From: Centroberyx gerrardi
Taxonomy: Eukaryota > Chordata > Actinopteri > Beryciformes > Berycidae
NCBI RefSeq assembly: GCF_048128805.1
Contig: NC_135999.1
Span: 22,307,659-22,371,658 of the forward strand
DNA: 64,000 nt
Reading direction: 5' to 3'
A model generated the notes under the pieces. It made no database searches. It had not been told where the DNA came from and worked only from the letters and a program-made list of their open reading frames with translations. Of this stretch, positions 7,168-48,568 are shown in pieces. The number at the start of each line of letters is the position of its first letter. Position 1 is the stretch's first letter. The position numbers were made by a program, and so were the translations under genes.

Positions 7168-7684
7168 CTTGTGGCCAGTGGGGCGGGAATTGAGGGTTGG
7201 ACAGGAGGCGGAGAGAGAGCCAGGGGCAGTCCAAGAGGCATACCTGCACCTATTTACCCTCTGTCTATATACATTATCTGTGTGTTTCAGTAGATGCTGG
7301 TAGGAAAGCCGTTGTACTGACGGACGAGAGTGTGCGTCCTTACGCCTAAAGACAACCTAAAAAGGCTATTTGTATGTAGACTACTGAATTTATCCCTGAA
7401 TGGGTAGAATTTATAAAGAGCAGGGACAGGCAACCATGTGCCACGCAGGTTTTTGTTCTAACCAAGCAGTATAGACTTCACTGATTATTTCCCCATCTCT
7501 GGTTGAAGTTAATCAATGAAAACTGCTGCTGTGTATGGTTGGAATGAAAAGCTGCATACTCTCGACTCTCCATGGCACATGATGATGATGATGCCCGTCC
7601 CTGCCGTGAGGCGAAGATTGATCTCAACACCGGTGGTGCACAATTTGTGTTGTGATTATTGTTGTAATGCTGACAGAAACTTGT

Positions 7685-7895
7685 GAAATCAACTGGTGTG
7701 TTTTGTTGAAATAAACACCTGCTTCCTCTTTGGTCATGATGACACATGGGTGAAGACCACTGCTCCATGGTGTGTTTGAGATACAGTAATTATACAAAGA
7801 GGTCAGCAATGGCACTTTCACAATCAGTGGTTCAGAAATATGAGTAAGTTCCGATTTCAACATAGAAATGCTGAACTTGCTGTTTCAAAAAAACA
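7685..7895 (+). repeat. Repeat copy 1 of a pair flanking the L1 fragment
   Basis: It shares AATAAACACCTGCTTCCTCT, CACATGGGTGAAGACCACTG, TTATACAAAGAGG and CACTTTCACAATCAGTGGTT, in order and orientation, with 11128-11335. It could be two insertions of one element or a local duplication. Confidence 0.6.
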
Positions 7896-7984
7896 GATAT
7901 CAGCATCCTGTCAAATAATAGTTTGATGCACCTGCACCAACTCTACTTGTCACCAAGTTGAGTCTAACAGCAGAAGACCTTTTA

Positions 7985-8810
7985 TGCTAAATGCAGATTA
8001 CACAACTTTGAAAATCGCCAAATCGCTGTACCGCACACATTACACAACATTCTTTCTTGTAATCTGTTGTCTTGTCGATGTAGTGCTGCGCACACTACAC
8101 AATCAAGCGCAGACGAGATTTACAAATTACAAGATCTCTCACCTACAGGGATCCCTGACAAAGAGCGATACACAGTTTTCTCACGAAAACACACACAAGA
8201 AGTGGCCCTGAATGATTACTGGTGTGTGCTTGTCATTCCATTCTCTGTGTGAGAAAATGTCAGCAGCGGGTAGAGGTCAGGTGACCGAGCTGAAGCATGT
8301 AATGTCATCCTTTTTGCAAAATAATAATAATGATAATAATAATTGTATTCACCATTTTATTCATGATTTTAAGTTTTTATTCATCATTAAAGAATAAAAA
8401 TTGGTCTCGACCTCAAGACTTGAGGTCAAAACCAAGACAAGACCAAGACAAAATAGGTCCAAGACCAAGACCGAGATCAGGCACTGCTGGTCTCAAGACT
8501 GGTCTCGTTCTAGAGACTTACAACTCTGCCGTCCTCAGTACTTGTCATACACTGCTCAAACTACAAGACCATTTCAGATTTTGTGCCGATAATTTCAAAC
8601 ATGCTTGAAAATGTCGGGCCGTCTGGGACGGTTCCAAGACTGGGTCAGAACGAGTCTCTGAACTGCTCATACTTAACGAGCGTCGGTGACGGGCATGAGC
8701 ACTGATTTGGCTCTGACCTGGAGTTTTTGTCCCCTATCTCAAAAACTTGTCTGGGGAGGGAAAATCAGGGCTAAAATCGCGTAGTGTGCGGTTGGCATTA
8801 GATGCCTTTT
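7985..8810. repeat. Non-autonomous DNA-transposon-like repeat, composite
   Basis: The outer parts contain TACACAACTTTGAAAATCGCC near the left and CGCGTAGTGTGCGGTTGGCA near the right. I associate this kind of sequence with a common fish DNA repeat. A different repeat rich in CAAGACCAAGAC (8400-8525) is nested inside. Reading frames across it carry no conserved domain. Confidence 0.45.
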
Positions 8811-11010: not shown

Positions 11011-11127
11011 ATGACTTTAAACCCCTGTGAGCACATATAATTGCGATGACACTGCTGATACCACTGATTAACACGCCTTCAGCCAGAGAGGGGAAACTCA
11101 TTAGTGAGATCAGCTGTTGTGTTTGGT

Positions 11128-11335
11128 TGGAATAAACACCTGCTTCCTCTCACATGGGTGAAGACCACTGCTCCATAGTGTGTTTGAGATCAGGATGGTA
11201 CAGTAGTTATACAAAGAGGCCAGCAATGACACTTTCACAATCAGTGGTTAGTGTAGCATGAGCAAATATGAGGAAGTTCCGATTACACAGGACACAGAAA
11301 TGCTGAACATGCTGTTTCCAAATAACGGTTATTGA
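11128..11335 (+). repeat. Repeat copy 2 of the pair flanking the L1 fragment
   Basis: This is a direct-orientation partner of 7685-7895, with small insertions and deletions such as the extra TCAGGATGG. It lies just past the end of the L1 remnant. Confidence 0.6.
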
Positions 11336-11373: not shown

Positions 11374-11604
11374 AGTATTATTTTCATTCTCCGCCAAATG
11401 CGAGCACAACTCGATGAAGAAAATCCTCCTTAGGTGCACGGCCAAAGATTAATACATGAAGAAAGAAAAGCCAGCACTCTTAATGTCCTTTTGTCATATA
11501 TTTGAATGGGCAGCTATAGAGAGTGTCTATAGCTGCCCATTCAAATATATGACAAAAGGACATTAAGAGTGCTGGCTTTTCTTTCTTCAAGTATTATTTT
11601 CATT
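11374..11604. mobile_element. 201-bp insertion containing a perfect hairpin, bounded by 15-bp repeats
   Basis: AGTATTATTTTCATT occurs at 11374-11388 and again at 11590-11604, as expected for a target-site duplication. Between them is a 201-bp insert. Its last 133 bp form a perfect inverted repeat with 64-nt arms (11457-11520 and 11526-11589) and a 5-nt loop, GAGTG. It looks like a short retroposed fragment copied back on itself. The source element was not identified. Confidence 0.7.
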
Positions 11605-13216: not shown

Positions 13217-13619
13217 TCAGTGTTGTCCATTGGTCGTGATCCTGTCCTTATGCACATCCAGGTAGTAGTGATGATGGCGGACCCGGTAGAACATCCGTTC
13301 CAGTAAGGGCGGTCTGTCACCTGGTGCGATGTATCCATTGGAGACCCCCGTGCACCGGAAGCCCAGCCGCTGGTAGAGCCGGTGGGCAGCCGGTGTGTAC
13401 GCCGTGGTTCCCAAGACCACCGACGAGTACCTGCGAGTCACGGCAAATTCCAGAAGTTTCCGTCCCAGCGCCATGCCAACTCCACAGCGCCGACAGCCCC
13501 GGTCCACAGACATCCGCCGCAGCTCGACAGCACCGCTCGGCTCCTGCTGGCCTACAGCTGCCACAGCACCCACTACTTTGCCTTCCAGCTCTGCTACCCA
13601 CAGACAGGAGTCTGAAATG

Positions 13620-18364: not shown

Positions 18365-18815
18365 GTAACCATAAAGACGTAGTGAGTGTGACGTCACCCA
18401 TAGGTTTCTGAGAGGCCGTTTTGAAGGCAAAAGATTGGGTTTATGACTAGCGCAGCCAGAGCGAGCCTAGTCGTCCCACAGACTATTGGCTCGTAATCGG
18501 GGACCTGTCAATCACTAGGAACACAATCCCGTTTTATAACTGCTATATTCCATTAATGATAATGATAATAATAATTATTTTGAAAATCGCCATAAGGACA
18601 TGCATTAGAATAAGGGAAATTAGCTACTGAGACCATAACCTCTTGTTGAAAAAATTGATTGACTTAATATTTTTAGCGAGAAGTTGGGTTGTGGTCCCAT
18701 TGACTTGGGCCAGGTTTGGAGTCTTTTTGGAGCTCAACCCCTAGCGGACATTAGAGGGTTTGCCATCTGCCACCACTTCCTTATTGGCTTCATTATCCAC
18801 CCGTGAGTTTTGGCC
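18365..18815 (+). repeat. Unnamed dispersed repeat, copy 1
   Basis: It shares GACGTAGTGAGTGTGACGTC, ACCCATAGGTTT, TTTTGAAAATCGCCATA and TTGGAGTCTTTTTGGAGC, in order, with 22651-23184. No coding domain is visible. It is likely a non-autonomous element. Confidence 0.65.
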
Positions 18816-19855: not shown

Positions 19856-20220
19856 CCCTTACAAAAAAGTTAAACCCACATGTGAATTCAAAGCACATGT
19901 GGTTTCTGGACACATGTTGGGTTTCACATGTGAACATTTTTCTCATGTTGTATTCTGATGTCACATGACAGTTTTTCTAGTCATTTCTAGATGAAGAGTA
20001 TTTTTACACGTGAACTTTTTTTTCACATTTTCACCTGCCATTAGATATGCCAATATTTATTTCACATGTGAAAACTTAATTTCACATGCAAAGAGACAGT
20101 TCACAGGTGAAAATGTCAATGGGAAATTTCACGTTCACATATGAAAACCAACATGTGTCCAAAAAGCACATGTGCTTTGAATTCACATGTGGGTTTTCAC
20201 ATGCGACTTTTTGGTAAGGG
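19856..20220. mobile_element. MITE with about 75-bp inverted repeats rich in CACATGTG
   Basis: The left end reads CCCTTACAAAAAAGTT, then AAACCCACATGTGAATTCAA. The right end, read inverted, is CCCTTACCAAAAAGTC, then the same block after a 9-bp difference. The 365-bp element is packed with the self-complementary octamer CACATGTG, so one strand can fold into a long hairpin. There is no internal gene. A target duplication was not clear. Confidence 0.75.
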
Positions 20221-22604: not shown

Positions 22605-25010
22605 TTGTCCATCCATTTATCCATCCATCTTCTAGCCACTTATTCGGGTCAGAAAATAGACTGTAAAAAACGATGGACGTAGTGAGTGTGACATCACCCA
22701 TAGGTTTATGAAGGGCCGTTTGGAAGCCAAAAGTTGGGGTTTACGAGCACCGCCATGTTGACATTTTTTGGAGCCGGAGCAGCCAGAGTGAAGCCGGGGG
22801 TTTCCCGCAGTGCCACAGCGGCGCCTGCTATTGGTCCGTGATCAGCGACCTGTCGATCACTGGACAGGCGACCTGTCAATCACTCGGAAAACAACCCCAT
22901 TTTATAACCGTTATATCCCGTTAATGACGCAATTATTTTGAAAATCGCCATACGGACACATATTAAAAGAAGTAAAATTAGCTACTGAGACCATAATCTG
23001 TTGTCAAAAAAATGTATTGACTTTATATTTTGAGTGAGAAGTTGAGCTGTCCCATTGACATGAATGGAGTTGGGCGGGATTTGGAGTCTTTTTGGAGCCG
23101 GCCTCTAGCGGACGTTAGAGGAATTGCAGCTTTCAGCCACTTCCTTATTGGCTTCAAAATTCACCTGTGGTTTTGGCCCCTTGGGTCAGGGTCACAGAGG
23201 CACAAGCAGAGCAGCCCAGACATAATTTTCCCCATCAACTTCCACCAACTCCTCCTTGGGGATCCTCAGGCCCTCCCAGGGCAGCTGGGAAATATAGTCC
23301 CTTCAGCGTGTCCTGGGTCTACCCCGGAGTCTCATCCCAGTTAGTCGTGCCCGGTACACCGTTACCTGGTGCCTGAACCACCTCAACTGGCTCCTCTCAA
23401 GGAGCAGCAGCTCCACGCCAAGGTTCTTCTGGATCACTGAGCTCCTTACTCTTTCACAAAGAGTGAGGTCAGACACCCTGATGAGAAACCTAATTTTGGC
23501 CGCTTGTAACTGCAATCTCACTGTCTGTCAGTATCCAGAGCTTGTGGCCATAGGTGAGGGTCACAATGACGATTGACAGGTAAATCGAGAGCTTTGCTTT
23601 GTGGCTCAGCTCTCTCTTCATCACCACGGCTACATTATTGCAGCCAGTGCACCCAACCGGCAGTCAATCTCACAATCCTTCTTACCATCACTTGTGAACA
23701 AGACTCTGACATACCTGCACTCCTTCACATGTGACAGTTGCTCACCACTCATCTAGATGGGACAATCTACCTTTTTCTGGGGGGAAACCATGGCCTCAGA
23801 TTTGGAGTTGCTGATCCTGACGGCATCACATTCAGCTGCAAAACGCTCCAGTGTACATCAGAGATCACGGTCCAATGAAGCCGGAAGGATGACATCATAC
23901 GCGAAAAGCAGAGATGTCACTCTAATGTCCAATGCCCACCTTGAACAAGCTTTATTTAACACCAAGAATGCGAGCATAGCTCTCACTCCGAGCATAAAGG
24001 GATTGAATGGCTTGCAGCAGCAGCGCGGCATCCCATACTCCCACAGCACCTCCAACAGGATACCTTGGGGAACACGATCATAGCCTTTTCCAAATCCACA
24101 AAACACATGTAGACAGGATTAGAAAATTCCCATGACCCTGCAATTATCAGAAACTGGTCCACTGTTCCATGGCCAGGATGGAATCTGCATTGTTCCTCCT
24201 GAATCTTAGGTTCGACAATCACTCCTTTAGTCTCCTTTACTGCACCTTGGCATAGGCTTTGCCAGGGAAGCTGAGTAGTGTGATCCTTCCATAGTTGGAA
24301 CACATCCCCCAGTCCCTCTTTTTGAAAATCACCACCCCTGTCTGCCAATCCAAAGGCACTGTTATCAAATTCCACGTGAGATGGAAGAGACGTGTCAACC
24401 ACAACAGCCCAACAATATCCAGAGCCTTCAGTATTTCAGGAGAAATCTCATCCACCCCTGGCACCATACCACTGAGGAGCTTTCTATTACCTCTGACCTC
24501 TGCCAAGGAGATGGGCTCAGACCCTCCTGAATCTTCATCAATCATCACTGCCTCTTCGTCTCTCGGGTTTAGGAGTTCCTCAAAGTACTCCTTCCACTTT
24601 CCGACAATGCCCCCAGTTGAGGTCAGTGTTTCCCCGCTCCTGCTGAGAACAGCCTGGGCAATGTCCTGCATCCCCCTCTTGCCTTGCCGAATGGGTTTCC
24701 AGCACCTCTTTGAGGCTGCCTGAAAGTCATTCTCCATAGCCTGTCCACACTCCTCCCACACCCGGGTTTTCACTACTGCAGCTGCTACCTTTCTGGCCTG
24801 CCAGTACGTCTCTGCTGAGTCAGGAGTCCCCCGTGCCAACCAGGCCCGGAAGGCCTCCTTCTTCAACTTGACATCCTCCCTCACTGACTCACTCCCACAC
24901 TGACCACCTACTGGCTACACAGCCTCTTCCTCAGCAGATGTTTTGAACAGGGTCCATTCCATGTCTATGTCCCCAAACTCCTCCAGGATACAGGAGAACC
25001 TCGCTCAGGG
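22605..25010 (-). mobile_element. RTE-like LINE, decayed, with a nested repeat
   Basis: On the minus strand, 24884-24237 encodes KEAFRAWLARGTPDSAETYW through GVVIFKKRDWGMCSNYGRIT. The next block (CRFHPGHGTVDQ, VYMCFVDLEKA) is at 24230-24060 and an S-L-L-F-A-Y-D-V active-site block is near 23900. The C-terminal zinc-knuckle-like end and RLRGRPRTR are at 23300-23520. The 3' end has the ATCCATCCATC tail at 22605-22650. Frame breaks and changed catalytic residues show it is inactive. A separate repeat (22651-23184) splits the 3' end. The clade assignment (RTE/Rex3-type) is from memory and uncertain. Confidence 0.75.
22651..23184 (+). repeat. Unnamed dispersed repeat, copy 2, nested in the LINE
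   Basis: This is a homologue of 18365-18815. The 6-mer GGGTCA flanks it at 22645-22650 and 23185-23190, fitting a short target duplication within the LINE 3' end. It includes CGATGGACGTAGTGAGTGTG near its left end. Confidence 0.65.
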
Positions 25011-32890: not shown

Positions 32891-33855
32891 TCAGCCAAAT
32901 AGCAGGTGGAGGTTGAGGAAGAGGGTGAAAACGGAGAGGACCAGGAGCGAGAGGAGAGAGGGAGAGGAGGATGAGGGAGAGGAGGCAGATGGAGGGAGGT
33001 CGAAGTCAGGCGGGCATTCGAGCTCGAAGCAGCGCACAGTGACACCTGAATCTTCGTTGCCGTAGTTTGCCCAGTACTCTTCGGGGTCGAGTTTGGGCAG
33101 CGCCAGCTCTTCCTCACCCAGCTCATACTTGACGACCGATGTGGAGGTGGACGGGCCCTTTCCATACAAACCAGCCTTGACTGTCTCCGAGGATTTCTCA
33201 AAGATGCCCTTGGTGGAGGACTGGGGCTTGTTCTTGGAGAACCACCAGCGGGTCTTGGTGCTGAAGGTGGTGGTGGTGGAGCCAGCGATGGAGCCGGGGT
33301 CGGGCAGGGGGCAGAGAGCGAAGTCCATCTCGCGGAGGAACCGCAGGTCCTGGCCACGGCGGGTGGAAGGGGAGGCACACATCACATCAGAGGAAGAGAC
33401 GCGGGCCTCGCGGAACCATTCCCACAGGGAGCGGGCCTCACAGCCACAGGACCAGGGGTTGCCGTTGAGGCGGAGGAACTGGATGCCCTGGGTGTCCCTC
33501 AGGGTCTGGCTGGGCAGCTCGGCCAAGGAGTTGTTGAAGAGGAAGAGCATGGTCAGCCGGCCGAGGTCGCGGAAGGCGCGGCGGTTGACCTGCCTGATGC
33601 GGTTCTCATGGAGAAGGAGGCGGTCAAGGTTGACCAGGCCACGGAACACGTTCTCTGAGAGGGTGCGGATACGGTTGCCATGCAGGAAGAGCTGGCTCAG
33701 GTTGATGAGGTCAGAAAAGATGTCATCCTGCAGGAAGTGGAGATGGTTCTCCTGAAGAGGGAAATGGTTTAACATTAGAATCACAATACTGGTGGTAAGA
33801 AGAATGGGCACAATGGCTTCTGTCATATTGATAACTGGATATAAGGTCAATGATG

Positions 33856-33899
<44 letters not shown>

Positions 33900-35472
33900 C
33901 TCACTAGCTAAATGAATGGAATGACTGGCTTTCTCCCTTTGTATATTAATGTGTATCAGCGTATCTGCATGCATGTGTGTGTCCCTATCTCTCTGGCGCC
34001 CCTACCTGCAGGTAGAGGAACTGCAGGCTGTAGAGTTTGTGGAAGATGTCATGGGGCAGGGCAGTGAGCTTGCAGCGGTGCATGTGGAGGCTCTGGAGCT
34101 TCTCTAGGCCGCGAAAGGCTCCCCCCTCCAGCCTGTGGAGGCTAGGGTTATCCCCCAGGTCCAACTCCTCCAAGTCCCTCAGCTCACTGAAGGCCCCTGC
34201 CTCGATCCACGTGATGTTGTTGGCAAACAGCCACAGAACCTGGCAGTACAAGAGAACACATCAATGGAATGTGATGATTACTCTTCTATGTGAATATTAC
34301 ACAGCCATAAAATGTGGGAAATGTTAATTAAATTGCTACACTTGCATCAGTAAAGAGCAAGGCATGAAATTTACTTTTCTCTTCTGATTAAAAGATTTCT
34401 GATTAGAAAAATTGTCCCTATCTCCTTCCCTTTAGGCATCCTACATCCATATGCAGACTACTTGCAACCACAAATTCCTACATGAATATACTATATGCTG
34501 TTTTCTCGCTCTTACCTGAGTTCCGAAGCCAAAAGAGCCAACTCTGAGCTCCATGATCCGGTTGTTCTGCAGGAACACGCGCTGCGACTCATAGGGCACT
34601 CCAACCGGGACGGCGGTGAAGTTCTGCGCCTGGCAGCTCACAGTCATTGGCGTCGGGTAGCACACGCACAGGTGCGGGCACGCCGAAGCCGGACTGGGCT
34701 TACCGAGGACCAGCCACACCACCAGCCAGAGGGAGAGACCGCCTGGTAGAGAGAAGAGAAACAGGGAGAGGTGAGACTCAAAGCGGGGAGACCGAGTAGC
34801 CAAAAGGCGCTGTCCATGGTTCATGTTAAAACGGTTATTTTTGGGCTTTGTTGCAGAGAATGCATATAATGTTTTGAAATAGTGACGGGCTATTGTGCAT
34901 CGTTTGCTATGTTTGTTTACTGGGTTTATGCACAAATATTTTGCTAGAATTACATCCGCAAGATCTTGGAACAATAATTATAGCAGGCAGGCTTACAAGC
35001 TTCTGAATAAGGCGAAGTTTGTGCATATGCATTTAATTTCAAAACTTCAAAAGCCTTAATTTGCACCAACTATTACGCACAGCATGATCACAGAATTTGT
35101 CAAACAATCAAAACATGGCAAATCATTTTAGAGCAATTAAAAGTAACCAAAAAGTTCCTGATACTACACTTGACACGCTGCGTGTGCAATTTTACAATTA
35201 GAAATCATATCCAGTTATAGCCTTATAGAACTTCCGAAGCTTAGTCTCATCTCAATTTTGCATCTGTAGGATTTTAACTTCATATCAAAGCATCTCTGAA
35301 AGCTTCTTTTCAATAACTCAGAAGTTGTTGCACAAATTGTGATGAAAGGCTGCATCGTCCTATATGTCTATGTTATCCATGGGTAAACCACAGAGAAGTC
35401 AAAAAGAAACTTACTTTTGCAGTTGCGCATGATGGAGCATCGTCGGCTCCGAGTAGTCGTAGAGGTGTCCAT
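32891..35472 (-). CDS. rtn4rl2: Reticulon-4 receptor-like 2 (Nogo receptor homologue)
   Basis: This is a complete four-exon minus-strand gene of 459 residues. The exons are 35415-35472, 34516-34742, 34006-34239 and 32891-33751 (1380 nt, all GT-AG). A hydrophobic signal (LSLWLVVWLVLG, about residues 22-33) precedes the LRR N-cap CPHLCVCYP. About eight leucine-rich repeats follow, for example LEELDLGDN, LFLHGNRI and LDRLLLHENRI. The C-cap (NPWSCGCEARSLWEWF, then SSSDVMC) is near residues 270-325. A low-complexity stalk contains EEYWANYGNEDSG, matching RTN4RL2 better than RTN4RL1. A hydrophobic C-terminus (LLSLLVLSVFTLFLNLHLLF) after a small-residue region is typical of GPI attachment. Nogo-receptor relatives sit on neuronal surfaces and bind myelin-type ligands that limit axon growth. 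N-linked sites NFT, NIT and NLS are visible. Whether it is the a or b fish duplicate cannot be told. Confidence 0.92.
33859..33898. repeat. (TG)n microsatellite in rtn4rl2 intron 3
   Basis: Twenty TG units lie about 100 bp upstream of the last exon. Confidence 0.95.
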
Positions 35473-40900: not shown

Positions 40901-41043
40901 CCCTGTCTCTCATACTCATTCTCTCTCTCTCTCTCCTCTCTCCTTCCTTCTCTCTTCCTCTCTTTTCTCTCCCCCTCTTCAAATCTCTCTCTCCTCTTTC
41001 TGCCTTAGTGTCTCTACCCCTCTCTCTTTGCCTCTCTCTCTCT

Positions 41044-41200
41044 CTCTCTCTCTCCCCCTTCATTATCAACTTGAGCTTCTTATCCATTTTCCTCTTTTAG
41101 TATGAAAGTGAAAAATTCTCTCTCACTCTCTCTCTCTCTCTCCCCCCCATTATCAACTTGAGCTTCTAATCCATTTTCCTCTTATAGTATGAAAGTGAAA

Positions 41201-41285
<85 letters not shown>

Positions 41286-41450
41286 CCCCATTATCAACTT
41301 GAGCTTCTTATCCATTTTCCTCTTTTAGTATGAAAGTGAAAAATTCTCTCTATCTCTCTTTCTCTGTCTCTCTCTCTCTCTCTTTCTATCTCTCTCCCCC
41401 CATTGTTAAGCTTGAGTTTCTTTTCCTTTTTCCTCTTTTAGTATGTAAAT
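41044..41450 (+). repeat. Tandem repeat with embedded (CT)n
   Basis: Four copies of a unit containing CATTATCAACTTGAGCTTCT, TATCCATTTTCCTCTTTTAG and TATGAAAGTGAAAAATTC begin near 41058, 41147, 41287 and 41400. They are separated by (CT)n blocks of variable length. The fourth copy is the most diverged. Confidence 0.85.
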
Positions 41451-45662: not shown

Positions 45663-48568
45663 CATAATAATAATAATAATGCATTTTATTTATGGGCGCC
45701 TTTCAAAGCACTCCAGGACACCTTACAAGACACAGTTAAAAACAAGCAACAATGTATCAAGACATCATAAAATCAAACAAAGCAATGATATACAGTAAAA
45801 GTTAATACAGTAAATAGGTATAAAATCATCATCAGTGCAAAACTCAATGTGGGTGTACCCATTAAATTCAGGATCAGACCGAATATGCCAGTTTGAAAAG
45901 GTGCGTTTTGAGACGAGATTTGAAGGTGGAGAGAGAGTCAATATTGCGAATGTCTTGTAGGAGAGAGTTCCAGAGGCGGGGGGCAGAACGACTGAAGGCT
46001 CTAGACACCATGGTAGTCAAGCAGGCAGATGGTGTAGTGAGTTGGATGGCAGAAGAGGATCTGAGAGTACGAGAGGGTGTGTAGATATGAAGGAGTTCAG
46101 AAAGATACGAAGGTGCTAGGTTATGAAGGGCCTTAAAGGTGAGAAGCAGAATCTTGAAATCAATGCGGTATTTAACAGGGAGCCAATGAAGCTGCTGAAG
46201 AACAGGAGTGATATGATCTATGGAAGGAGTTCTGGTAATGATACGGGCAGCTGAATTCTGGACCAATTGAAGTTTATGAAGACACTTGAGAGGAAGACCA
46301 AAGAGGATAGAATTACAGTAGTCAATACGGGATGTAATCAGGGTGTGAATGAGAATGGCGGTGCTGTTAGCTGTAAGCGACGGGCGAAGACAATTAATAT
46401 TGCGTAGGTGGAAGTATGCAGACGGAGTAACATTGTTAATGTGTGCTTCAAAAGATAATGTGCTGTCCAAGATGACACCCAGACTCTTAACCTGAGGGGA
46501 AGGAGAAACTATGGAATTGTCAATAGTCAGAGAAAAACTATCAGGTTTAGCCAAAGTAGATTTAGTACCAACGAGGAGAACCTCAGTTTTATCACTATTA
46601 AGTTTGAGAAAGTTGTATGAGAACCAGGATTTGATTTCCAGTAAGCAGTCGGAAAGGGAAGTGGGCGGAAGAGTGGAAGTAGGCTTGGTGGATAGATAGA
46701 GCTGGGTGTCATCCGCATAACAGTGAAATTGAATGCCGAATTTCCTGAAAATATGACCAAGAGGTAGAAGGTAAATAATAAATAGGAGGGGGCCCAAAAC
46801 AGAGCCCTGAGGGACACCGCTAGTAACTGGAAAGGACTGTGATTTCGAATTTTTACGTTGGACAAACTGAGTGCGGCCAGAGAGATACGATCTAAACCAA
46901 GCAAGAGAGGTGCCAATGGAAGCTAATCTCTCTAGAAGGATGTTATGTGAGATGGTGAACTCAGATCAAGAAGAACACCAAGGCTGTCTCCGTACTGTGA
47001 AAGGAGAGAAAACCAGACTGAAATTGTTCAAACAGATTATTGTCAATCAAGTGAATGTGTACCTGAGCTGCAACTGTTTTTTCAAGTATTTTGGAAAGAA
47101 ATGGTAAATTTGAAATTGGGCGAAAATTATTCAAATTGTTGGGGTCTGCACCAGGTTTCTTAAGTATTGGAGTTATTGCAGCTGTTTTGAGAGATGAGGG
47201 AACAAGACCAGAAGTAAGGGAGGAATGTATGATATCAGTTATTAAAGAGGACAGGGAAGGTAGACAGACTTTTACTAGATGAGTAGGAAGGGGGTCTAGC
47301 TGGCAGGTAGATGATTTGGATTTACGAATGAGACCAGATATTTCAGCAACAGCTGGGAGTTTAAAACTAGATAGTGAAGAAAAGAGGGAAACATAAAAAG
47401 GCGAATAAAGTAAACTGTGTGTAGTATTGTTCGAAAAGGTCAATTGCTGGTGAATATTTTCAATTTTGGCATTAAAAAAAGTCATGAAGGTGTTACATTG
47501 AGCAATTGAATACAGGTGAGGTGCAAGAGTGTCCGGTGGCCATAAAATATTGTTTACCGTGGAGAACAGGGCTCTTGTGTTCCCTTCTCCTGACCTAATT
47601 AAATTTGCATAATAGGTAGATTTAGCTGTGGAAAGAGCATCCTTATAAAGAAGTATGTGGTTGTCATACATGTCTTTATGAACAACAAGGCCAGTTTTCG
47701 CATAAAGGCGTTCCAGATGACGGCTTTTAGCTTTAAACATGGGCGGAAATTACGGGGGGGACAGGGGGGTCCGGACCCCCCCTTCCTGGGAAAAACAGAG
47801 AGTTGTCCCCCTCAATATATCATTGTAAACATAACTATATAATTTTAAATAATATAATAATATGTATTGAAAGCACTTGTGCTAATTATAGACACAAAAC
47901 AATGCGTTTTTAAGTTTCGAAAGATTGCCGGCCCCCCTTCTCATATGCCTCACAGTGGTTTGGTCCACTGCCTACCTGCCTTTTGTTCGCTCCATTACCT
48001 CGCGGTTGAATCTTGTGCGTCAGCGTGTTGGTACGGAGCCGCGTCTCCTAATGCATGTGTGTGTATGGAGGCAGGAGGTCTGTCCACAATTAAAATCCTC
48101 ATAACTCACTGAATTTTCGACCGATTTTCAAGCGGTTTGGTTTGTTACAAATGCCAGACATGTATTTATGATACAGGATACTTGGTTAAATTAAAATGCG
48201 GGTTTTCATACCAAAATTATCTTTTGTAGATGGTAACAGTAATATTTCTATAATATAATAGGCTATTTAAGATTAACTTACCCTACGTAATTAGGTTCTA
48301 AGTATATTCTTTTTTTCTTACTGCATGTAAAATGGCTGCCACTATGTAATTTTGTTTATAATTTTGGAAATAAATGAAGACTTAATTCTTAAAAAAGACC
48401 CTGAAGTAAGTTTCTGGCAGGCTTCATAGCGTTCTGGACTTTTACACATTGACAGCAAAACATTAGAGATCTGCTTTTTCGGGAAAACTAAATCTAATTA
48501 GGCATATATTAGCTTTAGTTCAGTTAATAGGTGTTGCATCTCACCTACTACTGTAAATAACCTGCATG

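Follow-up and report, generated by a model that had tools for sequence, protein, structure and literature searches.

The locus examined here, in the fish Centroberyx gerrardi, raises the question of how a perfect hairpin with 64-nt arms came to lie within a 201-bp insertion that is itself flanked by exact 15-bp repeats. The DNA analysed, referred to below as the window, is a stretch of 64 000 nucleotides of contig NC_135999.1 with a GC content of 42% and a CpG observed/expected ratio of 0.44. This composition is in keeping with an animal genome, as are the reading frames, described below, for leucine-rich repeats, a GNAT acetyltransferase and LINE-type reverse transcriptase. Positions are those of the window and features are described on the plus strand unless otherwise indicated. 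The insert looks like the scar of a repair accident of a known type, neither a gene nor a mobile element. We consider that it arose as a one-off templated insertion during the repair of a staggered break, with template switching, and give this reading a probability of roughly 60 per cent.

Anatomy of the insert and its hairpin

The insert occupies positions 11389–11589. Sequence comparison identified the 15-bp target repeat AGTATTATTTTCATT on its left (11374–11388) and again on its right (11590–11604); the two copies agree at 15 of 15 bp, and this exact 15-mer is found at these two places only in the 64-kb window. From left to right, the insert consists of a single-copy part of 68 bp, whose outer end carries no tail (11389–11456), a left hairpin arm of 64 nt (11457–11520), the 5-nt loop GAGTG (11521–11525) and a right hairpin arm of 64 nt (11526–11589), which is directly followed by the right repeat. 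The right arm is the exact reverse complement of the left, so that the insert contains an overlapping, inverted second copy of part of itself, identical at 64 of 64 nt, with a spacer of 5 nt. The arrangement is asymmetric: the right arm alone abuts a flanking repeat, and 68 bp separate the left arm from the other repeat.

The perfect arms with their short loop had been reported in the preliminary description of the locus and were confirmed base for base, as was the presence of a 201-bp insertion between exact 15-bp copies (11374–11388 being identical to 11590–11604). Pairing had also been said to continue to 71 nt with one mismatch. This extension is real; its last 7 nt on the right-hand side (11590–11596) are part of the flanking repeat and lie outside the insert.

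A chance origin of the hairpin is excluded by comparison with the rest of the window and with randomized sequence. When the site was excised, the longest perfect arm found elsewhere in the window was 14 nt (loops of 3–8, 10 and 12 nt), and five mononucleotide shuffles of the window gave longest perfect arms of 9–11 nt. The predicted RNA fold of the hairpin has an energy of −130.7 kcal/mol, whereas 200 shuffled sequences averaged −45.9 (z = −18.8).

Several other repeated sequences were observed in the window. A 64-nt inverted pair, 94% alike and 197 bp apart, is located at 19872–19935 and 20133–20196 amid words resembling CACATGTG, and is possibly a short inverted-repeat element. A dispersed repeat is present in two direct copies, 18376–18815 and 22676–23178, which are 88% identical in one block and 78% in another. 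The region 41032–41449 is composed of tandem units (periods of 87, 113 and 141 bp) in which CT runs alternate with a conserved non-repetitive core. On the minus strand, there are two open reading frames (ORFs) for reverse transcriptases of the LINE type, of which 45874–46797 matches RVT_1 (Pfam) above the cut-off and 46961–47740 falls below it.

Proposed fold-back copying during break repair

The junction between the right arm and the right repeat carries a trace of the proposed copying. If the right arm was made by copying the left one, the next bases to be added are predicted from the adjoining single-copy part to be TGTATTA; the repeat begins with AGTATTA, that is, with one mismatch followed by six matches. 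The matching GTATTA is located at 11591–11596, and its next-but-one template for the fold-back strand, TAATAC, at 11450–11455. On our reading of the sequence, GTATTA would be the microhomology through which the fold-back copy joined the target, offset by one mismatched base; we propose that the mismatch at the first base of the repeat is due to the overhang having retained its own terminal base. Among 400 000 draws of 7-mer pairs from the window, a run of six matches in seven was seen in 0.07% (0.0007), a somewhat flattering figure since the comparison was chosen post hoc, and pairs agreeing at six or all of the seven positions made up 0.19% (0.0019), a comparison likewise chosen post hoc.

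The proposed event would begin with the opening of the target with a 15-nt stagger, the later filling-in of which would generate the two 15-bp copies, as the repeats themselves suggest. The plus-strand end ...TTTTCATT may then have been extended by, or joined to, the copy of a donor, about 137 nt long and beginning with CTCCGCC; we place the donor outside the window, and the left arm is read as templated by it. At GAGTG, read as the point of fold-back, the growing strand would have turned back and copied itself over 64–70 nt, giving a perfect right arm that is read as self-templated. The order of the parts, and the fact that the right arm alone reaches a repeat, are as expected of a fold-back strand. 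The end ...TGTATTA would finally have annealed, via GTATTA, to the other 3′ overhang, the first base of which would be retained, and the gaps would have been filled; here the junction sequence is observed and the steps leading to it are conjectured. The target repeat would follow from a return point lying 15 nt behind the point of departure.

All of these steps could belong to a single event combining template switching with alternative end joining, with synthesis putatively of a kind performed by Pol delta or Pol theta. A staggered break with two 3′ overhangs would give such an outcome, and so would a back-stepping fork. What is observed in this scheme is the anatomy and the return microhomology; the donor, the polymerase and the type of break are inferred. 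Because no donor was found within the window, neither the left junction nor the bases that would have primed synthesis at the loop can be compared with one, and this counts against the repair reading.

When the insert was compared with the whole window, the matches other than those to itself and to its inverted arm were confined to fragments of 11–20 bp at an E-value of 4.2; the 201-bp unit, which the preliminary description had suggested might be sought elsewhere, has no second copy within the window. Phage records gave no match to the insert. An exact 30-base pattern from the arm had 0 occurrences in a viral contig collection, and an exact 25-base pattern from the 68-bp part had 0 in a genome contig collection, each count applying to that collection only. 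The DNA in these collections comes from phages, viruses, bacteria and archaea, so that such negative results are expected and carry little information. Translated pieces of 38–46 amino acids in five of the six frames (all except the third plus-strand frame) matched no Pfam family above the cut-off; a match to DUF7863 (E-value 0.3; 11.2 bits, for a cut-off of 25 bits) was taken as due to chance. The 68-bp part contains four CpG, which is unremarkable, 8.9% of the 68-bp stretches of the window having at least as many.

Two diverged copies of another sequence, at 7676–7900 and 11093–11332 (3.4 kb apart; about 81% and 89% identity in two matching blocks), would represent a repeat or a local duplication. 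They were examined as a possible source of an empty site. The similarity of 11093–11332 to 7676–7900 ends 41 bp before the left repeat, and the copy at 7676–7900 is therefore uninformative on the insert-free site.

Alternative origins

The preliminary description had attributed both the duplication and the inversion to a fold-back product of LINE-style target-primed copying. One part of this proposal stands: a single fold-back copying event explains the inversion, in agreement with the order of the parts and the 6-nt return microhomology, and a staggered target explains the repeats. The LINE-style priming itself found no support. Such a route would consist of the reverse transcription of a tailless RNA, with the plus-strand end priming within the RNA; the 3′ end of the cDNA would snap back, copy itself over 64–70 nt and join the second-strand nick by microhomology. 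A target-site duplication of at least 5 bp is one criterion for LINE insertion, and the insert has one of 15 bp (15/15), within the stagger of about 12–18 bp quoted for L1 (PMC10830420). The L1 protein ORF2p is reported in the same source to polymerise on DNA in vitro, to extend RNA hairpins, to tolerate some terminal mismatches and to switch templates; internal priming on the RNA is discussed in PMC4476161 for tailless, 3′-truncated retropseudogenes, and pieces of LINE-type reverse transcriptase are present in the window at 45874–47740. Against this, the poly(A) or microsatellite tail that is a further LINE criterion is absent from the insert: within 25 nt of its ends, the longest A run is 3 nt and the longest T run 4 nt, and Tandem Repeats Finder detected no array between 10644 and 13619. 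The candidate nick sites, CATT/A and TACT/A, each agree with TTTT/A at three of five positions, a score equalled by 15% of the 5-mers of the window; this is a weak comparison, since the rule is that of mammalian L1 and may fail for other LINE clades.

Since the 15-bp repeats fit a LINE at least equally well, target-primed copying is retained as a possible, though rather doubtful, origin, and break repair with template switching is the one that we prefer. Repeats of 15 bp are typical of LINE integration without being exclusive to it. In the two-class scheme for human templated insertions (TSIP), the experimental break insertions all belong to class 2, whose members are described as having no target repeats (PMC5110952), and this tells against repair. 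By this scheme the insert is a mixture: it has a target repeat, as class 1 does, but neither the tail nor the site that go with it, and it shares its microhomology with class 2. A literature search on LINE fold-back second-strand synthesis found no paper, and we do not claim its absence from print; if it were the true origin, snap-back of a LINE cDNA would be a way of forming inverted inserts other than twin priming, and this case would display its fold-back point and its two outer junctions in readable form. In twin priming, the 5′ part of the element is inverted but not duplicated, and the 3′ part carries a tail. A twin-primed L1 was rejected as a candidate, the inverted part of the insert being an overlapping second copy of the arm and the tail being absent. 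The features shared with L1 twin priming and with tailless retropseudogenes are the target repeat, an inverted part and complementarity at the junction (PMC4476161).

The same structure might have been built in two events, by an older plain insertion with its repeats and a later template switch during replication, in which the left arm was copied, synthesis resumed at GTATTA of the right repeat and the intervening sequence was lost. It has been proposed that replication template switching can produce a perfect hairpin stem in a single step (PMC8794818), and such a history is compatible with both the anatomy and the microhomology. However, it would then be by chance that the return point coincided exactly with the start of the right repeat, whereas this is predicted by a single event, and we regard the two-event history as unlikely. 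Fold-back chimeras are known from amplified and long-read libraries, and an assembly or library artefact of this kind had been among the possibilities first raised for the hairpin. A chimeric read has no cause to produce an exact 15-bp repeat and a microhomology together, and at this site the two coincide at the junction, which makes an artefact very unlikely. Inverted arms and flanking target repeats would also be expected of a short terminal-inverted-repeat or fold-back mobile element, but the ends of the insert are not inverted copies of each other, the left arm lying 68 bp in from the left end, and the window holds the insert once. A target repeat of 15 bp is moreover longer than usual for elements of these types, to which we give hardly any credence here.

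Relation to known insertions, age and possible function

As a repair product, the insert is a new instance of an already known type of mutation. Among complex break insertions in yeast rad27 mutants, 15 of 23 combine a pair of fragments from a single locus that lie in opposite orientations and overlap in part (median length, 50 bp), their junctions being about 2–20 bp apart; inverted pairs from one locus also account for 14/18 in rtt105, where the pieces scarcely overlap, for 3/3 in rfa1-t33 and, as a rarity, for 9/144 in dna2 mutants (PMC11724301). The insert resembles the rad27 set in its inverted, overlapping pieces of tens of base pairs, its short spacer (here 64 nt of overlap and 5 nt of spacer) and its microhomology, and differs from the rtt105 set in the extensive overlap of its arms. 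In the yeast sets, the two inverted pieces come from one distant locus captured at the break. Unlike the yeast insertions, in which the outer-junction microhomology is 0–4 bp, the present one has a 15-bp target repeat and an outer microhomology of 6 nt, and belongs to an animal germline instead of yeast mutants (PMC11724301).

Tailless duplications with target repeats have been described in vertebrates. In table 1 of PMC2671141, seven of the 12 human interchromosomal duplications without a tail have a target repeat: five combine filler with a target-site duplication (TSD), one has microhomology, TSD and filler, and one TSD only. The target repeats in this table measure 4–21 nt and the microhomologies 2–9 nt. 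An A/T tail is present in 17 of the 29 interchromosomal cases, 12 of which have a target repeat. The table is thus a precedent for our case and not an argument for preferring repair, since repeats are as common with a tail (12/17) as without (7/12) and only one of the seven tailless, repeat-bearing cases also has microhomology. The insert is like these repair-mediated duplications in being tailless and in combining, as some of them do, a target repeat with microhomology. However, 824 of the more than 1000 duplications are closely linked to their donor, whereas the window contains no donor for the insert, and the part of that study concerned describes no fold-back (PMC2671141).

Partial parallels exist with other mechanisms. 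The filling-in of 3′ overhangs leads to small tandem duplications (PMC8355091). Templated insertions made by MMBIR are, like the present hairpin, inverted copies of a nearby template flanked by microhomology, but their template is resident within 100 bp, whereas here it belongs to the insert (PMC8421209). Template switch mutations that create hairpins likewise produce a perfect stem in one step, through copying of the strand being synthesized or of its complement. As described, their substrate is resident sequence, whereas the present stem lies within a larger insertion with a target repeat (PMC8794818).

The insert need not be very young, as had been suggested from the perfection of the palindrome. 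Since the 64 positions compared between the arms and the 15 compared between the repeats show no difference, the age has a 95% upper limit of about 1.9–9.5 million generations if rates of 10⁻⁸ to 2 × 10⁻⁹ are assumed; this clock is unreliable because palindromes are unstable and the arms can correct each other.

Nothing was found in favour of selection of the hairpin as a source of RNA, another of the earlier suggestions: 0 Rfam families reached the gathering score between positions 8000 and 15000. The scan for protein families covered 10 of the 45 ORFs of at least 100 amino acids. Among these 10, the family match closest to the insert is that of a minus-strand ORF for a GNAT acetyltransferase (13217–13573), and the insert lies about 1.6 kb beyond the stop of this ORF. 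Location of the hairpin in a 3′ UTR of this ORF was considered and rejected; four hexamers resembling poly(A) signals (AATAAA or ATTAAA) are found on the minus strand between the GNAT stop and the insert, and transcription of the hairpin is unsupported. Further away, the minus strand carries leucine-rich-repeat ORFs at 32891–34974, with LRR_8 above the cut-off and LRRNT, in the second ORF, below it; these ORFs are possibly Nogo-receptor-like.

The insert is probably without function. It is an otherwise ordinary, clean single-locus case in which both junctions and the point of fold-back can be read. It also indicates that an extended perfect hairpin, from which a hairpin RNA might evolve, could be created by one repair accident in a single step.
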